From: Ignisphaera sp.
Lineage (GTDB): Archaea > Thermoproteota > Thermoprotei_A > Sulfolobales > Ignisphaeraceae
Assembly (NCBI GenBank): GCA_038831005.1
Contig: JAWBKZ010000005.1
Span: 216,146-257,268, forward strand
Length of the DNA: 41,123 nt
Direction of reading: 5' to 3'
In this document: positions 972 through 8,819 of the stretch, one piece after another
How the letters are laid out: every line of letters starts with the position of its first letter
How positions within the stretch are numbered: position 1 is the stretch's first letter
Program-made: the position numbers and the translations under genes
Notes under the pieces: generated by a model
Database searches by the model: none
Seen by the model: the letters and a program-made list of their open reading frames with translations, nothing else
What the model was told of the DNA's origin: nothing

Positions 972-2036
972 TTACACGATATTTTTCTTAACCATAAGCT
1001 CTGCTATAAGAACTCCTGTACCCGCTGCTCCCCTGATGGTGTTATGTCCTACGACAAAGTACTTTATACCACCTAGAACTTTGTCTTCTCTAATTCTTCC
1101 CACAACAACGCTCATACCATTACCTTCCATTCTATCCAATCTCGGTTGAGGTCTATCCTGCTCTCTTCTAACAACTACGGGTTTCTTTGGAGCTGTAGGT
1201 AGGTCAAGCTCTCTTATCTTATTATTCTTGAACTCCTCCATAATCTTCATCACATTCTCTGCATCAGCTTTCTTTTCGGTTTCCACAAATACTGCTAGAG
1301 AATGTCCCTCTAAAACCATAACCCTATGACAGCTAGCTGTAACTCCAAAGCTATTGTTCAACTCTATAGAGTTCTTGCCTAGAACACCTAGTATCTTTCT
1401 AGATTCTGTCTCTACCTTCTCTTCTTCGCCCTCAATAAAGGGTATAAGGTTGTCTAAGATGAACATAGAGGGTACACCTGTCAAACCTGCGCCAGAAAGT
1501 CCTTGCATAGATGCTACTACGACACGTTTAATACCATATTCATCATATATGGGTTTTAAACTTAATGTAAGTATTGCCGTAGTACAGTTCGGAACTTTAA
1601 CAATAACCCCACTCCATCCCCTTATCTTTCTTTGAACCTCAACTATCTCTATGTGATCTGCATTTATCTCTGGATTAAGCAGAGGTATATCTGGTTCCAT
1701 TCTCATGTTACTAGCATTAGAAACTACTGCCACTCCTTTCATGGCCAACTCGGGTTCCATAGTCGACGCAACCTCCTTGGGCAGAGCTATGAAGGCAATA
1801 TCTATCTTCTCTCTGACTATAGCATCAACATCTAGTGGATCTATTACTAGCTCTGCTACAGAACTGGACATGGATTTCTCTATAACCCATTTAACGGATT
1901 CTGAATACTTTTTACCTACAACCTTCTCTGAAGCTGTTACCATCACTAGATCAAACCAGGGATGGTTATCTAGTAGCGACACAAATCTTTGACCAACAAT
2001 TCCTGTAGCACCTAACACAGCTACACGTCTTTTCAT
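972..2036 (-). CDS. asd: Aspartate-semialdehyde dehydrogenase
   Basis: Reduces aspartyl-4-phosphate to aspartate-4-semialdehyde with NADPH in the cytoplasm, feeding homoserine, threonine and methionine. It is 354 aa, usual for the archaeal/fungal-type family. The N-terminal Rossmann motif is AVLGATGIVGQRF (about 6-18). The catalytic cysteine is C151 in PNCTTA, and the base and substrate residues lie in SCHRVMVLEGHS (H237, R238, H245). The start codon overlaps the lysC stop by 4 nt (ATGA), so translation is probably coupled to the kinase that supplies its substrate. It is the last gene of the thrB-hom-lysC-asd operon. Archaeal malonyl-CoA reductase is a related alternative, but the operon context argues for Asd. 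Confidence 0.95.
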   Translation of the reverse strand: MKRRVAVLGATGIVGQRFVSLLDNHPWFDLVMVTASEKVVGKKYSESVKWVIEKSMSSSVAELVIDPLDVDAIVREKIDIAFIALPKEVASTMEPELAMKGVAVVSNASNMRMEPDIPLLNPEINADHIEIVEVQRKIRGWSGVIVKVPNCTTAILTLSLKPIYDEYGIKRVVVASMQGLSGAGLTGVPSMFILDNLIPFIEGEEEKVETESRKILGVLGKNSIELNNSFGVTASCHRVMVLEGHSLAVFVETEKKADAENVMKIMEEFKNNKIRELDLPTAPKKPVVVRREQDRPQPRLDRMEGNGMSVVVGRIREDKVLGGIKYFVVGHNTIRGAAGTGVLIAELMVKKNIV

Positions 2037-3157
2037 ATGTGTTCACCTTCAAATAAAACTCTGTGCAATTTTTTTAAAGTATCATAACTGTTTTCTCTGT
2101 CTACGTAAAGTACGATTGATGGTCTATGAATATATGATTGAATACCTCTGATCTCTATACCTAAATTGACAACATAATTAAGAATATCCTTTATGAATAC
2201 CGTCTTAGAGGTTCCCTCACCTATTATAGCTATATACGAATATTCCGCGATATCTTTTTTCATCACAAGTTTAGGTCCTTTAAACTCCTCCGCTATCCCC
2301 TTCGATATAGTTGTACCAAACATTTTCCACGATCCTATTAAAACATTACTACCGTAAACTTTTTCGAGAGGATCAAATGACTTTGGATTAATGCCTTTTG
2401 CTCCATGCATTGATGCTTCTAGAGCTTCACTATAGCTCATATACTTGACCAGTTTTGCTGTAGGCACTAGATCTGGATCAGTCGTCATGATGCCCTCAAC
2501 ATCAGTCACGAGATACACTCTATTAAGTTTCAGAAGCGATGCTATAGTTGTTGCAGTATAGTCGGAACCCCCTCTACCGAGAGTTGTAATTACGCCTTCG
2601 GGTGTTGCACCTATGAATCCCTCTATCACGGGTACATAAACGCTATCCCTAATTACTGTATAAACTTTCTCAAGAGCTATTGAAGTGGCTATATAGTCTA
2701 TCAAAGCATCTCCATGGTTGTTATTCGTTATTATAACATCTTTAGCGTTCAATTCAAAAGCTTTTATGTCGCTAAGTTCTAGGGCTTGGACTAATATCAT
2801 CTTACTGATTTTCTCGCCATACGATAATACAATATCCAAAAGCGCTAGATCTATACTCCCTATACTTTCAACTATTCTTCTTAAATTCTTCAGCTCTTCA
2901 TCAATTCTCTTGACAAGTTTTATCGAACCTATCTCTCTAGCCACCTCTGTATATTTTGATTCAACCTCATTAAGTGCTTCCCTAGACCCTCTCGCTGCTT
3001 GAAGCAACCTATCTGTTATACCCTTCATAGCCGATACTACAATAATAGGTCTGATACCTCTTTCCGCAAAAACCTCCTTTATGTTTTGTGCAACCTCTAT
3101 ATAGGATTTACCATCTCTAAGTAAGGAACCACCTATCTTTACTACTACATCTTCTAT
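2033..3157 (-). CDS. lysC: Aspartate kinase, no canonical start codon (AUA proposed)
   Basis: Phosphorylates aspartate, the first step to threonine and methionine. The AAK fold is clear: V-V-V-K-I-G-G-S at the N-terminus, GRGGSDYTATTIASLL in the middle, and one ACT-like domain over the last 65 or so residues. From an AUA at 3157 the protein is 374 aa, shorter than typical 450-470 aa enzymes with two ACT domains. The first in-frame ATG (3028) would remove the first 43 residues including the nucleotide-binding KIGGS, so it cannot be the real start. No ATG, GTG or TTG lies between that motif and the in-frame TAA at 3163-3161. AUA at 3157 sits 5 nt after a perfect AGGTGAT Shine-Dalgarno. The alternative is a 1-nt indel: GTG at 3167 overlaps the hom stop and would give MIK(I)EDVVVKIGGS after skipping one A. 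Confidence 0.88.
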   Translation of the reverse strand: MEDVVVKIGGSLLRDGKSYIEVAQNIKEVFAERGIRPIIVVSAMKGITDRLLQAARGSREALNEVESKYTEVAREIGSIKLVKRIDEELKNLRRIVESIGSIDLALLDIVLSYGEKISKMILVQALELSDIKAFELNAKDVIITNNNHGDALIDYIATSIALEKVYTVIRDSVYVPVIEGFIGATPEGVITTLGRGGSDYTATTIASLLKLNRVYLVTDVEGIMTTDPDLVPTAKLVKYMSYSEALEASMHGAKGINPKSFDPLEKVYGSNVLIGSWKMFGTTISKGIAEEFKGPKLVMKKDIAEYSYIAIIGEGTSKTVFIKDILNYVVNLGIEIRGIQSYIHRPSIVLYVDRENSYDTLKKLHRVLFEGEHI

Positions 3158-3163
3158 TCTTTA

Positions 3164-4198
3164 TCACCTTTCCGAAGATAAAGCTATAGCTAAAACATCA
3201 TCTAGTACTGAATGAGCTGTCTCTACTCCACCACCACCTTTACCAACAAAGAAGAGATCTCCAGTATTGCTTTTAATTCTAACAGCATTTAAAGTACCGT
3301 TTATCTGAGCAAATACATCATTTCTCGATATCCTCGAGATCCTAACGGATGCTTTTCTTCCTTGAACATCCAGGGAGGCTATGTACTTAATTGTGTAGCC
3401 TTCTTTGAATGCTTCAACAACATCTCTAAGCTTAACTTTCGATAAGCTTTCTCTTTCTACCTCATCAAGTTTTAGTTCATGGCCAATAACGTAGGATAGT
3501 ATTACTAATTTTGCAGCTGCATCAACACCATCTATATCAAGTGTTGGATTAGCTTCTGCTATACCCATTGCTTGAGCCCTTTTCAAAGCTTCCTCAAAGT
3601 CTATAAGTTTTTCATGCATTTCTGTAAGTATGAAATTTGTTGTAGCATTCAATATTCCGTCTATTCTCTCTATATCTTCGCTCTTCAAACTCATAAGCAT
3701 ATCAATAAGTGGTGTACCCCCCATAACCGTTGATCTAAATCTGATGCTGATCTTCTTACTTCTAGCTAAATTCATTAACTCTTTAAACCTTAAGACAAGA
3801 GGTGCCTTATTTGCTGTGACTACATGGATTCCTCTACTTAACGCAAAAGTTATATCGCTTAATCCTGGCTCACCATTAATGTAGTTAGCTGGTGTAAGTT
3901 CTATATGGATATCAGGTTGTACAGTATCATACATGTGATGCAAATCCACATAGTTATATGCGTAAGGAACAAACAGGTTTACTCCAGATCTAGGTACTTC
4001 ACTAAGTTTTAGAAGCTCATACTCAGTAAAGCCTTCATTCTTCATGGCCATACCTTTGGAATCCACTATCCCTACAACGGATAATGCTACCCCATACTTA
4101 TCTTCAATCATTTTTCTCTTCAGAGCGAGAACTCTAGCAAAAGCTCTGCCAACAGAACCAAATCCTATTACAACAATTCTAGAGGTCCTCAAATCCAT
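3164..4198 (-). CDS. hom: Homoserine dehydrogenase
   Basis: Reduces aspartate semialdehyde to homoserine. The Rossmann motif VVIGFGSVGRAF is at the N-terminus, TANKAPL marks the cofactor/active-site region, and ATTNFILTEM with ANPTLDIDGVDAAAKL corresponds to the substrate-binding and catalytic region. The start at ATG 4198 gives 344 aa and is preceded at 4 nt by GGTGAG; ATG 4222 lies inside thrB and lacks such a site. There is no C-terminal ACT domain, as in other short archaeal enzymes. One base separates it from the thrB stop, and its own stop overlaps the Shine-Dalgarno of lysC. It is placed directly between the enzyme that uses homoserine (ThrB) and those that make its substrate. Confidence 0.93.
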   Translation of the reverse strand: MDLRTSRIVVIGFGSVGRAFARVLALKRKMIEDKYGVALSVVGIVDSKGMAMKNEGFTEYELLKLSEVPRSGVNLFVPYAYNYVDLHHMYDTVQPDIHIELTPANYINGEPGLSDITFALSRGIHVVTANKAPLVLRFKELMNLARSKKISIRFRSTVMGGTPLIDMLMSLKSEDIERIDGILNATTNFILTEMHEKLIDFEEALKRAQAMGIAEANPTLDIDGVDAAAKLVILSYVIGHELKLDEVERESLSKVKLRDVVEAFKEGYTIKYIASLDVQGRKASVRISRISRNDVFAQINGTLNAVRIKSNTGDLFFVGKGGGGVETAHSVLDDVLAIALSSER

Positions 4199-4199
4199 A

Positions 4200-5150
4200 C
4201 TACTCACCCAAGATCTCCACACCTTTGTGACTTACCCTGGTTACTATGAGATCTGAGTATAGACCCTTATCATTGAGAAAAGATATAAGCTTTTTACCCA
4301 CATTAAGAGCCTCTTCACCAGATCTATATATCGAGAATACCGCTGGTCCTGCACCACTTATGTTGAATCCCAAGGCTCCGAGTTTTAATGCCAGTTCCTT
4401 TAGTTCATAGTAGTAGGGTATAAGATTGGCTCTATAAGGTTCAGCAATAAAGTCTGTTGATATTGCTTCACCGAAAAGCTCTATATCATTATTCATTAAT
4501 GAGTACATAAGTTTTGCGATAGCTGAAGACTGTTTAACGTGTATAGCTAGGTCTATACTCTTGGGTAAAACAGATCGTGCAAACTCTGTCTTTCTACTAA
4601 CCTTAACCACACCTTTGGGAATAACTACAGCTATATGGATTGAAAAACCGGGCTTTATTTTGTACACTCTTTCTTTATTCAAATCAAGAACAACTATACC
4701 TCCAAAAAGGCTTGCCGCAACATTATCGTAGTGTGGTGTACCTACAGCTGCAACTTCACCTTCTCCTGCGATTTTAAGCATTTCGTATTCATCATATTCT
4801 CTATTAAGAAACTTCATAAATGCATAAGCAGTAGCAGCTGAAGAAGCTCCTGAGCTACCTAACCCACTTGCTGGTGGAACACCTTTAACGACATTAATTA
4901 CTATATCAATGTTGTATAATCCGTATTTCTTGATAATGTTTTGTGCAATAGCATAGACTATATTGTCTTTCCCCGAAGGAACATCCAAACCTCCTGCTTT
5001 AACATCGATTAAACCATTTCCTCTACATATAGTAATTTCAACGATATCATAGATCCCTTCTATTGCCATAGCAAGAATATCGAATCCCGGACCTATATTA
5101 GCTATAGATGCAGGTGCCCTTACCTTAACATTTGTACAATATTTATCTAT
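4200..5150 (-). CDS. thrB: Homoserine kinase, no canonical start codon in frame
   Basis: GHMP kinase that phosphorylates homoserine for threonine synthesis. The N-terminal family motif APASIANIGPGFDILA is encoded at about 5070-5117. The phosphate loop GVPPASGLGSSGASSAA and the C-terminal GFNISGAGPAVFSI motif follow. The first ATG in frame (5069) lies after the N-terminal motif and would delete part of the fold. Reading upstream, the frame stays open to TAA at 5077-5075 without any ATG, GTG or TTG. The only near-start is AUA at 5150, giving 316 aa. A strong AGGTGAT site points instead to ATG 5165, which is in another frame and stops after five codons (M-R-Q-T-L). Either reinitiation at AUA, or a real or assembly frameshift, is needed. 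thrC is not in the window. Confidence 0.85.
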   Translation of the reverse strand: MDKYCTNVKVRAPASIANIGPGFDILAMAIEGIYDIVEITICRGNGLIDVKAGGLDVPSGKDNIVYAIAQNIIKKYGLYNIDIVINVVKGVPPASGLGSSGASSAATAYAFMKFLNREYDEYEMLKIAGEGEVAAVGTPHYDNVAASLFGGIVVLDLNKERVYKIKPGFSIHIAVVIPKGVVKVSRKTEFARSVLPKSIDLAIHVKQSSAIAKLMYSLMNNDIELFGEAISTDFIAEPYRANLIPYYYELKELALKLGALGFNISGAGPAVFSIYRSGEEALNVGKKLISFLNDKGLYSDLIVTRVSHKGVEILGE

Positions 5151-5165
5151 AGTGTTTGGCGCATC
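5148..5165 (-). other. Five-codon upstream ORF (MRQTL) preceding thrB
   Basis: ATG at 5165-5163 lies 4 nt after the AGGTGAT Shine-Dalgarno (5178-5172 region) and reads M-R-Q-T-L before TAG at 5150-5148. The TAG overlaps the candidate AUA start of thrB (A-TAG), an arrangement like the ATGA couplings between other genes here. It may be a leader peptide, or the remnant of the true thrB start after an indel. The role is inferred only. Confidence 0.35.
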
Positions 5166-5202
5166 AAAATCACCTTACCTACTATTCTAACACGATAGCG
5201 TT

Positions 5203-5214
5203 TAAAAATTTTTA
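5203..5214 (-). promoter_or_regulatory. AT-rich palindrome / TATA region of the thr operon
   Basis: A perfect 12-bp palindrome, TAAAAATTTTTA, lies between the lysM stop (5222) and the thrB Shine-Dalgarno. Read on the minus strand it is followed by about 25 nt and then the leader containing AGGTGAT, so it fits a TATA box for thrB-hom-lysC-asd. The T-run might also end lysM transcripts. Confidence 0.45.
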
Positions 5215-7949: not shown

Positions 7950-8819
7950 GTGGGGTTTATTGCCCAAGTCGGTATAGCTTATGAAGTAATCAGATGGGAA
8001 GAGAAGTCATTAACTGAAGCAGCAAAAGAACTCGGCCTTGAACCGAAGCTTATCCACCTTCACTCTACATATCTTCTTGTTGGACTTAATGGAAAGAAGA
8101 GCCTAGATCCTGCTTTATCAGTTGTTCTACAGAGAGCTATAAGTCATGCCATAGCATTAAACTCTACATTAGCGCTCGAATCCATGGGTCTTAGAGTTGT
8201 AAATAACTCACTATCAACAGCCATAGCCATGAACAAGTTATGGACAATAAAGACGTTATCTAACATAGGAATATCTGTACCAAATACTGCTATATCTTTC
8301 GACTTCGATTCTTGTCTAAAGGCTACAAATGTATTGGGGTATCCAGTAGTCATTAAGCCTATAGATGGTAGCTGGGGAAGACTCATAGCTATGGCTAGAG
8401 ATGAAGAGGAATTGAGAGCTGTAATAGAGCATAGAAGCTATATACCGAACCCAATAATGAAGGTAAACATGCTCCAAGAATTTGTTAAGAAACCTAATAG
8501 AGATATAAGGGTATTCGTTATCGGTGAAGAAGTTCCAGCAGCAATATATAGAGTGAGCAACCATTGGATAACAAATACTGCGAGAGGAGGTATAGCTGTT
8601 CCAGCTAAAGTAGATTCAACACTAGAGGAATTAGCATTAAAGGTGGCCAGATCAATAAATGCTGAAATAGTTGGTGTTGATGTATTCGAGGACCCTGAGA
8701 GAGGTTACATAGTTAATGAAGTTAATGCTATTCCGGAATTCAAGAATACCGTAAAGGCTACGGGATGCCCTATACACATGAAGATAATGGAGTATATAAA
8801 GAGTTTGGTGAAAAAATAA
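7950..8819 (+). CDS. lysX: LysW-aminoadipate (or glutamate) ligase LysX
   Basis: ATP-grasp ligase of 289 aa that attaches the substrate to the C-terminus of LysW. It shows the N-terminal GIAYEVIRWEEKSL, the ATP-grasp elements YPVVIKPIDGSWGRLIAMA and EHRSYI, the RDIRVFVIGEEVPAAIYR strand, NHWITNTARGG, and the metal and substrate segment NEVNAIPEFKNT near residue 255. These mark it as a LysX/ArgX-type RimK relative. Start GTG 7950 has GGAG at suitable distance inside lysW; an AUU at 7959 has AGGTGGG ahead but is less likely. Only one such ligase is in the window, so whether it takes aminoadipate, glutamate or both cannot be settled here. Its stop overlaps the lysJ start by one base. Confidence 0.93.
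   Translation: MGFIAQVGIAYEVIRWEEKSLTEAAKELGLEPKLIHLHSTYLLVGLNGKKSLDPALSVVLQRAISHAIALNSTLALESMGLRVVNNSLSTAIAMNKLWTIKTLSNIGISVPNTAISFDFDSCLKATNVLGYPVVIKPIDGSWGRLIAMARDEEELRAVIEHRSYIPNPIMKVNMLQEFVKKPNRDIRVFVIGEEVPAAIYRVSNHWITNTARGGIAVPAKVDSTLEELALKVARSINAEIVGVDVFEDPERGYIVNEVNAIPEFKNTVKATGCPIHMKIMEYIKSLVKK

Follow-up and report, generated by a model that had tools for sequence, protein, structure and literature searches.

The window analysed here, a 41,123-nucleotide stretch of an Ignisphaera genome of 1.70 Mb in nine contigs (G000), carries on its minus strand an operon whose Pfam domains give the order thrB - hom - aspartate kinase - asd. The first gene, thrB (homoserine kinase, 4200..5164), has the GHMP kinase N and C domains, and a homology search gave its product 53-60% identity to the five closest relatives in the genus over nearly the full length. 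It is followed by homoserine dehydrogenase (3164..4222; PF00742, PF03447), aspartate kinase (2033..3157; PF00696) and, as the last gene, aspartate-semialdehyde dehydrogenase (972..2036; PF01118, PF02774). The initial annotation of this DNA had reported that thrB lacks a canonical in-frame start ahead of its conserved core, and the sequence confirms this: the open stretch of the ThrB frame begins behind TAA 5177-5175 (given earlier as 5077-5075 by a slip of the pen) and contains no ATG, GTG or TTG until ATG 5069-5067, which lies within the core, downstream of APASIANIGPGFD. The Shine-Dalgarno (SD) sequence AGGTGAT (5169..5175) is spaced for ATG 5164-5162, in agreement with the genome-wide GGTG-to-ATG spacing, and this ATG opens a five-codon leader ORF, MRQTL (5147..5164), that is conserved in relatives and reads ATG 5164-5162, CGC 5161-5159, CAA 5158-5156, ACA 5155-5153, CTA 5152-5150 and TAG 5149-5147. 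The SD and the ORF that it serves had both been described before and are real, with the ATG and the TAG each lying one position away from where they had been placed (5165 and 5150-5148). Relative to this ORF thrB occupies the -1 frame, and an AUA overlaps the leader stop at 5150-5148, as previously noted. A TATA-like element read from the sequence about 40 nt upstream of the leader ATG (AATTTTTAAA, 5201..5210) is a candidate promoter and would make the 5' UTR short; many relatives likewise have an A+T-rich box, roughly between -40 and -50. The tRNA set of the genome includes tRNA-Thr TGT, GGT and CGT and tRNA-Asn GTT.

Six genomes of the genus Ignisphaera, the window's own included, have this form of thrB, and at all six loci SD - ATG - C[GT]C CAA ACA NNN TAG is found with thrB in the -1 frame. 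Counted from the leader ATG, the AP[AG]S core is at a distance of 41, 47 or 59 nt; each of these values is 2 modulo 3, which puts thrB in -1 and the ATG out of the ThrB frame at each of the six. Because the same arrangement recurs at six independent loci, the sequencing error that had been left open at first is excluded for thrB. Extended to the whole set of leaders described below, an explanation by error, pseudogene formation or chance has a negligible probability, given that intact, full-length ORFs show the arrangement repeatedly in independent genomes, genera and families. More distant members of the order (G019, G039 and G049) have ordinary thrB starts. Searching 214 genomes of the order with the pattern ATGCNCCAAACANNNTAG, for which no frame or gene condition was set, gave matches in 12, including one match per genome in 8 of the 11 genus genomes. 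Ten of these 12 matches lie at threonine genes, and a reversed-pattern control on the same 214 genomes gave none. Three of the ten are at genes other than thrB: in G119 the gene is thrC, and G005 and G006 have a small ORF plus hom there. As a separate observation, the leader at L198, L199 and L200 (G004, G005 and G006) is followed by a -1-frame ORF of 114-146 codons ahead of hom, and these ORFs resemble each other by eye in G004 and G005.

Reading of operon heads widened the motif to a start (ATG, GTG or TTG) followed by NNC, CAA and ACA, ACG or ACC, and a second form, start - GAA - ACN - stop, was met at thrC loci without the CAA core. The thrC gene of the window genome itself carries this GAA form (C5:192231, TTG GAA ACA TAA), as does thrC of G009, in which no canonical start of the ThrC frame precedes +137. 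When 229 genomes of the class were searched with a sequence-only model of the leader, further members came to light at thrB of G100, aspartate kinase of G063, hom of G083 and thrS of G026, the last identified as threonyl-tRNA synthetase by its PMNCPGH and RGFTQDD motifs; matches above E 0.02 were inspected only in part, and at two model matches from these 229 genomes (G165 and G219) a matching leader was absent. Of the 10 thrS genes closest to that of G026 in a protein search with its ThrRS, 8 proved to have the leader, among them that of G013, a member of the window's own family.

Together these form a collection, as opposed to a random sample, of 80 leaders spread over 75 genomes and nine families, located before thrB, thrC, hom, aspartate kinase or thrS, all of these genes lying in the -1 frame. 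The frame was left free in the ATGCNCCAAACANNNTAG pattern search, in the 229-genome model search and in a homology fetch of thrC from family f11 (see below). The common core is start - X XAA ACN - stop, where C CAA ACN or G GAA/GAT ACN is present in 79 of the 80 leaders; this invariance is by construction for the part of the set in which CCAAAC or start-GAA/GAT-AC was in the search pattern, and is independent for the six thrB, for G053, for the GAA family as first noticed and for the homology-fetched f11 and thrS sets. With codons named for the sites that they would occupy in the slip proposed below, the P-site codon is GAA in 39 leaders, CAA in 38 and GAT in two (G GAT ACN), and the base preceding it equals its own first base in 79 of 80. 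The A-site codon is ACA (60), ACG (15) or ACC (4), the exception being a single ATG; judged from this synonymous variation in 79 of 80 leaders, the Thr codon is conserved at the amino-acid level. Of the Thr and Leu codons to which attention had been drawn in the MRQTL leader of a threonine operon, the former is kept and the latter is not. Leaders start with TTG (38), ATG (31), GTG (10) or ATA (1) and stop with TAG (38), TAA (33) or TGA (9) at a position ranging from the 4th to the 10th codon, and an SD-like motif lies upstream of 78 of them. Between the opening of the -1 frame and +60, 18 of the 80 lack a canonical start in that frame, and several more have only a GTG inside the SD. At thrS of G026 and thrC of G039 and G159 the codon of the -1 frame with which the leader start overlaps comes directly after a stop.

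A few members deviate individually. In G161 the thrB gene (L219:2581), which lies behind thrC, has its own leader, ATG CGC CAA ATG CTT TAG, with ATG replacing the Thr codon. G147 and G146 (L217, L218) have an extra upstream leader copy, ATG CGC/CAC CAA ATT, with an Ile codon in place of Thr and in frame with the GTG CGC CAA ACA copy. The thrC leader of G157 (L223) starts with ATA (ATA CTC CAA ACC AGT TAG), the rest being conserved.

Non-canonical starts in the window genome bear on how thrB might be expressed. The initial annotation had pointed to two neighboring genes with the same defect, and aspartate kinase indeed has no canonical start before its core; its case has a separate cause, in that AUA 3157-3155 (minus strand) lies at SD spacing behind AGGTGAT 3169-3163 and gives the expected N-terminus, EDVVVKIGGS. 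Aspartate kinase thus probably starts at this AUA, which is common to G001, where it overlaps the hom stop TAG. In gene starts across G000, counts of codons at a spacing of 6-7 from GGTG, compared with expectation, were 25 versus 5.0 for ATA, 20 versus 1.8 for ATT, 13 versus 0.9 for CTG and 158 versus 2.9 for ATG, which suggests that non-canonical starts are in use, the statistic being a rough one in which ACG is also enriched. Examples of genes without a canonical start are found at C1:299866, C1:326256, C4:221845, C4:258762, C3:6406 and C5:20825. Another is a citramalate/isopropylmalate synthase-like gene, KSVEILDTTLRDG..., at C3:52050-53627 (plus strand), whose frame opens right after a TAG, behind AGGTGGTTGGTGG. 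The short contig C9 contains low-complexity, valine-glycine rich ORFs (C9:23-1339). A loose scan of G000 for shifted leaders on other genes returned 21 candidates in -1 and two in +1, with X XAA ACN nowhere except at thrB and thrC; in many of the -1 matches the start codon falls within the SD, and we claim no excess over the genome as a whole. LysX (window position 7950, plus strand; TTG CCC AAG ... TAG) was considered as a lysine analogue and rejected, since its relatives have an ordinary in-frame GTG or ATG there.

We propose, with a probability of roughly 0.57, that the leader is a threonine-responsive switch acting through a -1 frameshift at a hungry Thr codon. A ribosome would load on the SD, start at the ATG (or GTG or TTG) and reach XAA (CAA Gln or GAA Glu) and then the Thr codon. 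When Thr-tRNA is plentiful, the Thr codon would be read and translation would stop after three to nine codons, yielding no enzyme. When Thr-tRNA is scarce, the empty A site would allow the P-site tRNA to slip one base back, from C CAA to CCA or from G GAA to GGA with pairs 1 and 3 kept, so that AAC (TAC after GAT) would become the A-site codon, Asn-tRNA would enter at AAC, and the ribosome would continue in the -1 frame into ThrB, ThrC, Hom, AK or ThrRS. The sensor would be the ribosome itself, monitoring Thr-tRNA. At the window thrB the putative slip site is C CAA ACA (5153..5159, minus strand; CAA in the P site, ACA in the A site), its -1 reading is CCA AAC, and the predicted product is MRQN-TIDKYCTNVKVRAPASIANIGPGFD....

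Several observations are in line with this proposal. In 79 of 80 leaders, ahead of threonine genes and thrS, the presumptive A site has a codon for the amino acid that would be limiting, and the shifted main ORF behind an SD-served start is conserved and lies in -1 in every listed member. Scarcity would switch the enzymes on, so the sign of regulation fits. Base-pairing considerations indicate that re-pairing after the slip would give two Watson-Crick pairs and a G-U for GAA. Counting against the proposal are the middle C-U mismatch for CAA and the GAT ACG of two f7 leaders, a still weaker slip site than C CAA, as well as the loss of the Thr codon from the G161 thrB leader and the ATT of the extra copy in G147 and G146. 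The core is not a classical slippery heptamer, since neither C CAA ACN nor G GAA ACN matches X XXY YYZ. According to a 2021 review, hungry -1 shifts require just P-site slippage and an empty A site, with no stimulatory structure (PMC8211752).

The mechanism offered by the initial annotation was termination-reinitiation on AUA. In a generalized form, a ribosome that has read the leader as far as its stop would begin anew in -1 on the overlapping NTA or NTG codon, and the Thr codon would tune the share of ribosomes that reach the stop. We regard this as unlikely. The overlap codon is ATA in G000 and in most genus thrB, G000 seems to make genuine use of AUA starts with an SD, given the excess of ATA described above and the aspartate kinase start shared with G001, and the overlap codon is a canonical ATG in thrS of G013 and in five f11 thrC genes. 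Nevertheless, over the whole collection this codon is CTA (24), ATA (20), TTA (19) or GTA (8) in 71 of 80 leaders, and TGA stops, which give NTG, account for merely nine. Because the stop-overlapping codon is not conserved, reinitiation on AUA does not hold as a general mechanism; the comparison of relatives suggested at the outset thus upholds the short ORF and not the AUA. Reinitiation also leaves X XAA ACN unexplained, and under it threonine scarcity would reduce expression, which is the wrong sign. Moreover, moving the stop should move the N-terminus, and this is not what the thrS genes show. In six species the thrS core sits displaced by 3 nt (one codon) from the start, still in frame, and in four of these six the stop shifts between the 6th and the 9th codon position with the length of the -1 N-terminus constant, the -1 protein of these four retaining PN-x-x-x-LKPEVLARA.

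The thrC genes of family f11, which we take to be Sulfolobaceae, provide a second view of the frame in use. All 30 loci fetched by protein homology alone have TTG GAA ACR with an SD in front and thrC in -1; in a pattern control, the SD pattern matched the thrC site once per genome in 30 of 31 genomes, and the remaining matches were at about the level of the reversed control. The fourth codon is GG plus any base, this Gly codon varying in its third base only. Between the slip site and the ATG, in leaders with the ATG five codons behind GGA AAC, single-base codon differences were synonymous/nonsynonymous 115/63 in the -1 frame versus 35/205 in the leader frame, these being differences from related pairs and not independent counts. 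This coding constraint suggests that the -1 frame is translated ahead of the first in-frame ATG in f11. Along with the constant N-terminus of the thrS products, it agrees better with a shift at X XAA ACN than with a restart at the stop.

The same data bear on whether the leader only gates access, with translation of the enzyme beginning independently at a downstream or non-canonical start in the enzyme's own frame. In 28 of the 30 f11 thrC genes an in-frame ATG lies 8-23 nt behind the leader start, thrC of G000, G001 and G135 has one at +26, and thrB of G112 and G100 has a main-frame ATG upstream; expression would be possible without a shift at these genes. However, no such start precedes the core in the genus thrB, in thrS of G026 and others, or in thrC of G009, G008, G019, G039, G119 and G158, and in f11 coding constraint acts on the -1 frame ahead of the very ATG in question. 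Accordingly, we rate an independent start as less probable still than reinitiation. A constitutive programmed frameshift, by -1 at X XAA ACN, that set a low fixed level of enzyme with no sensing of threonine would fit the slip geometry and the frame data equally well, and a backward pull on the ribosome might come from the SD behind the start, in the manner of SD stimulators elsewhere (PMC8211752). It would not explain why the leaders found are restricted to threonine genes and thrS, nor why the Thr codon is conserved as an amino acid, and it appears improbable to us.

The proposed threonine switch shares parts with several known systems. In prfB, encoding bacterial release factor 2 (RF2), a short ORF ends early, and slow termination at UGA leads to a +1 frameshift at CUU UGA, with an SD just upstream, so that RF2 is sensed and the product relieves its own shortage. 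Common to both would be a short leading ORF, an upstream SD and a slow A-site event that shifts the ribosome into the frame of the enzyme, whereas the threonine leader would shift by -1, right where the gene begins, sense a Thr codon and be shared by several genes. Bacterial T-box leaders place synthetase and biosynthesis genes under the charging state of one tRNA through a large fold that binds the tRNA directly; the threonine leader would likewise join synthetase and biosynthesis genes under the charging of one tRNA, with the ribosome, rather than an RNA fold binding the tRNA, as the proposed sensor. Like the attenuation leaders thrL, hisL and pheL, it is a short leader with a codon for the regulated amino acid before a biosynthetic operon; unlike them it has a single Thr codon, no room for terminator and antiterminator hairpins, and an enzyme frame that overlaps at -1. 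A transcription attenuator leader peptide was therefore ruled out, the -1 overlap with the gene leaving no intergenic space. Hungry-codon frameshifting is said to have been studied in E. coli, by Gallant and Lindsley, under imposed starvation; as may happen at the threonine leader, the A-site codon lacks charged tRNA and the P-site tRNA slips. Frameshifting at pheL has been described as incidental (PMC5009743). The sole cellular -1 frameshift reported from an archaeon, as of a 2021 review, is in fucA1 of Saccharolobus solfataricus, with an A AAA AAT heptamer, a putative stem-loop inside the gene and amino-acid sensing not known (PMC8211752). The threonine leader would be a further cellular -1 frameshift in an archaeon of what is probably the same order, and differs from fucA1 in having no A AAA AAT heptamer, in the position of its site at the gene start and in the Thr codon proposed as its sensor.

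A 2016 review knew of no examples of hungry-codon frameshifting used to make starvation-specific trans-frame proteins (PMC5009743). In the open-access literature searched we found no description of this leader element, and no amino-acid-sensing leaders in Archaea turned up there. There is about an even chance that the leader constitutes the first natural hungry-codon frameshifting sensor, controlling an order-wide archaeal regulon of threonine biosynthesis and threonyl-tRNA synthetase. If so, it would supply the natural example that was lacking in 2016, and Archaea would gain a minimal sensor of tRNA charging, of about 20 nucleotides, that needs neither an RNA fold nor a protein. Standard gene callers would then be bound to misplace the starts of these genes or to call them broken. 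Since the Sulfolobaceae, for which genetics is available, appear to have the leader before thrC, a direct test of threonine sensing by this element should be feasible.
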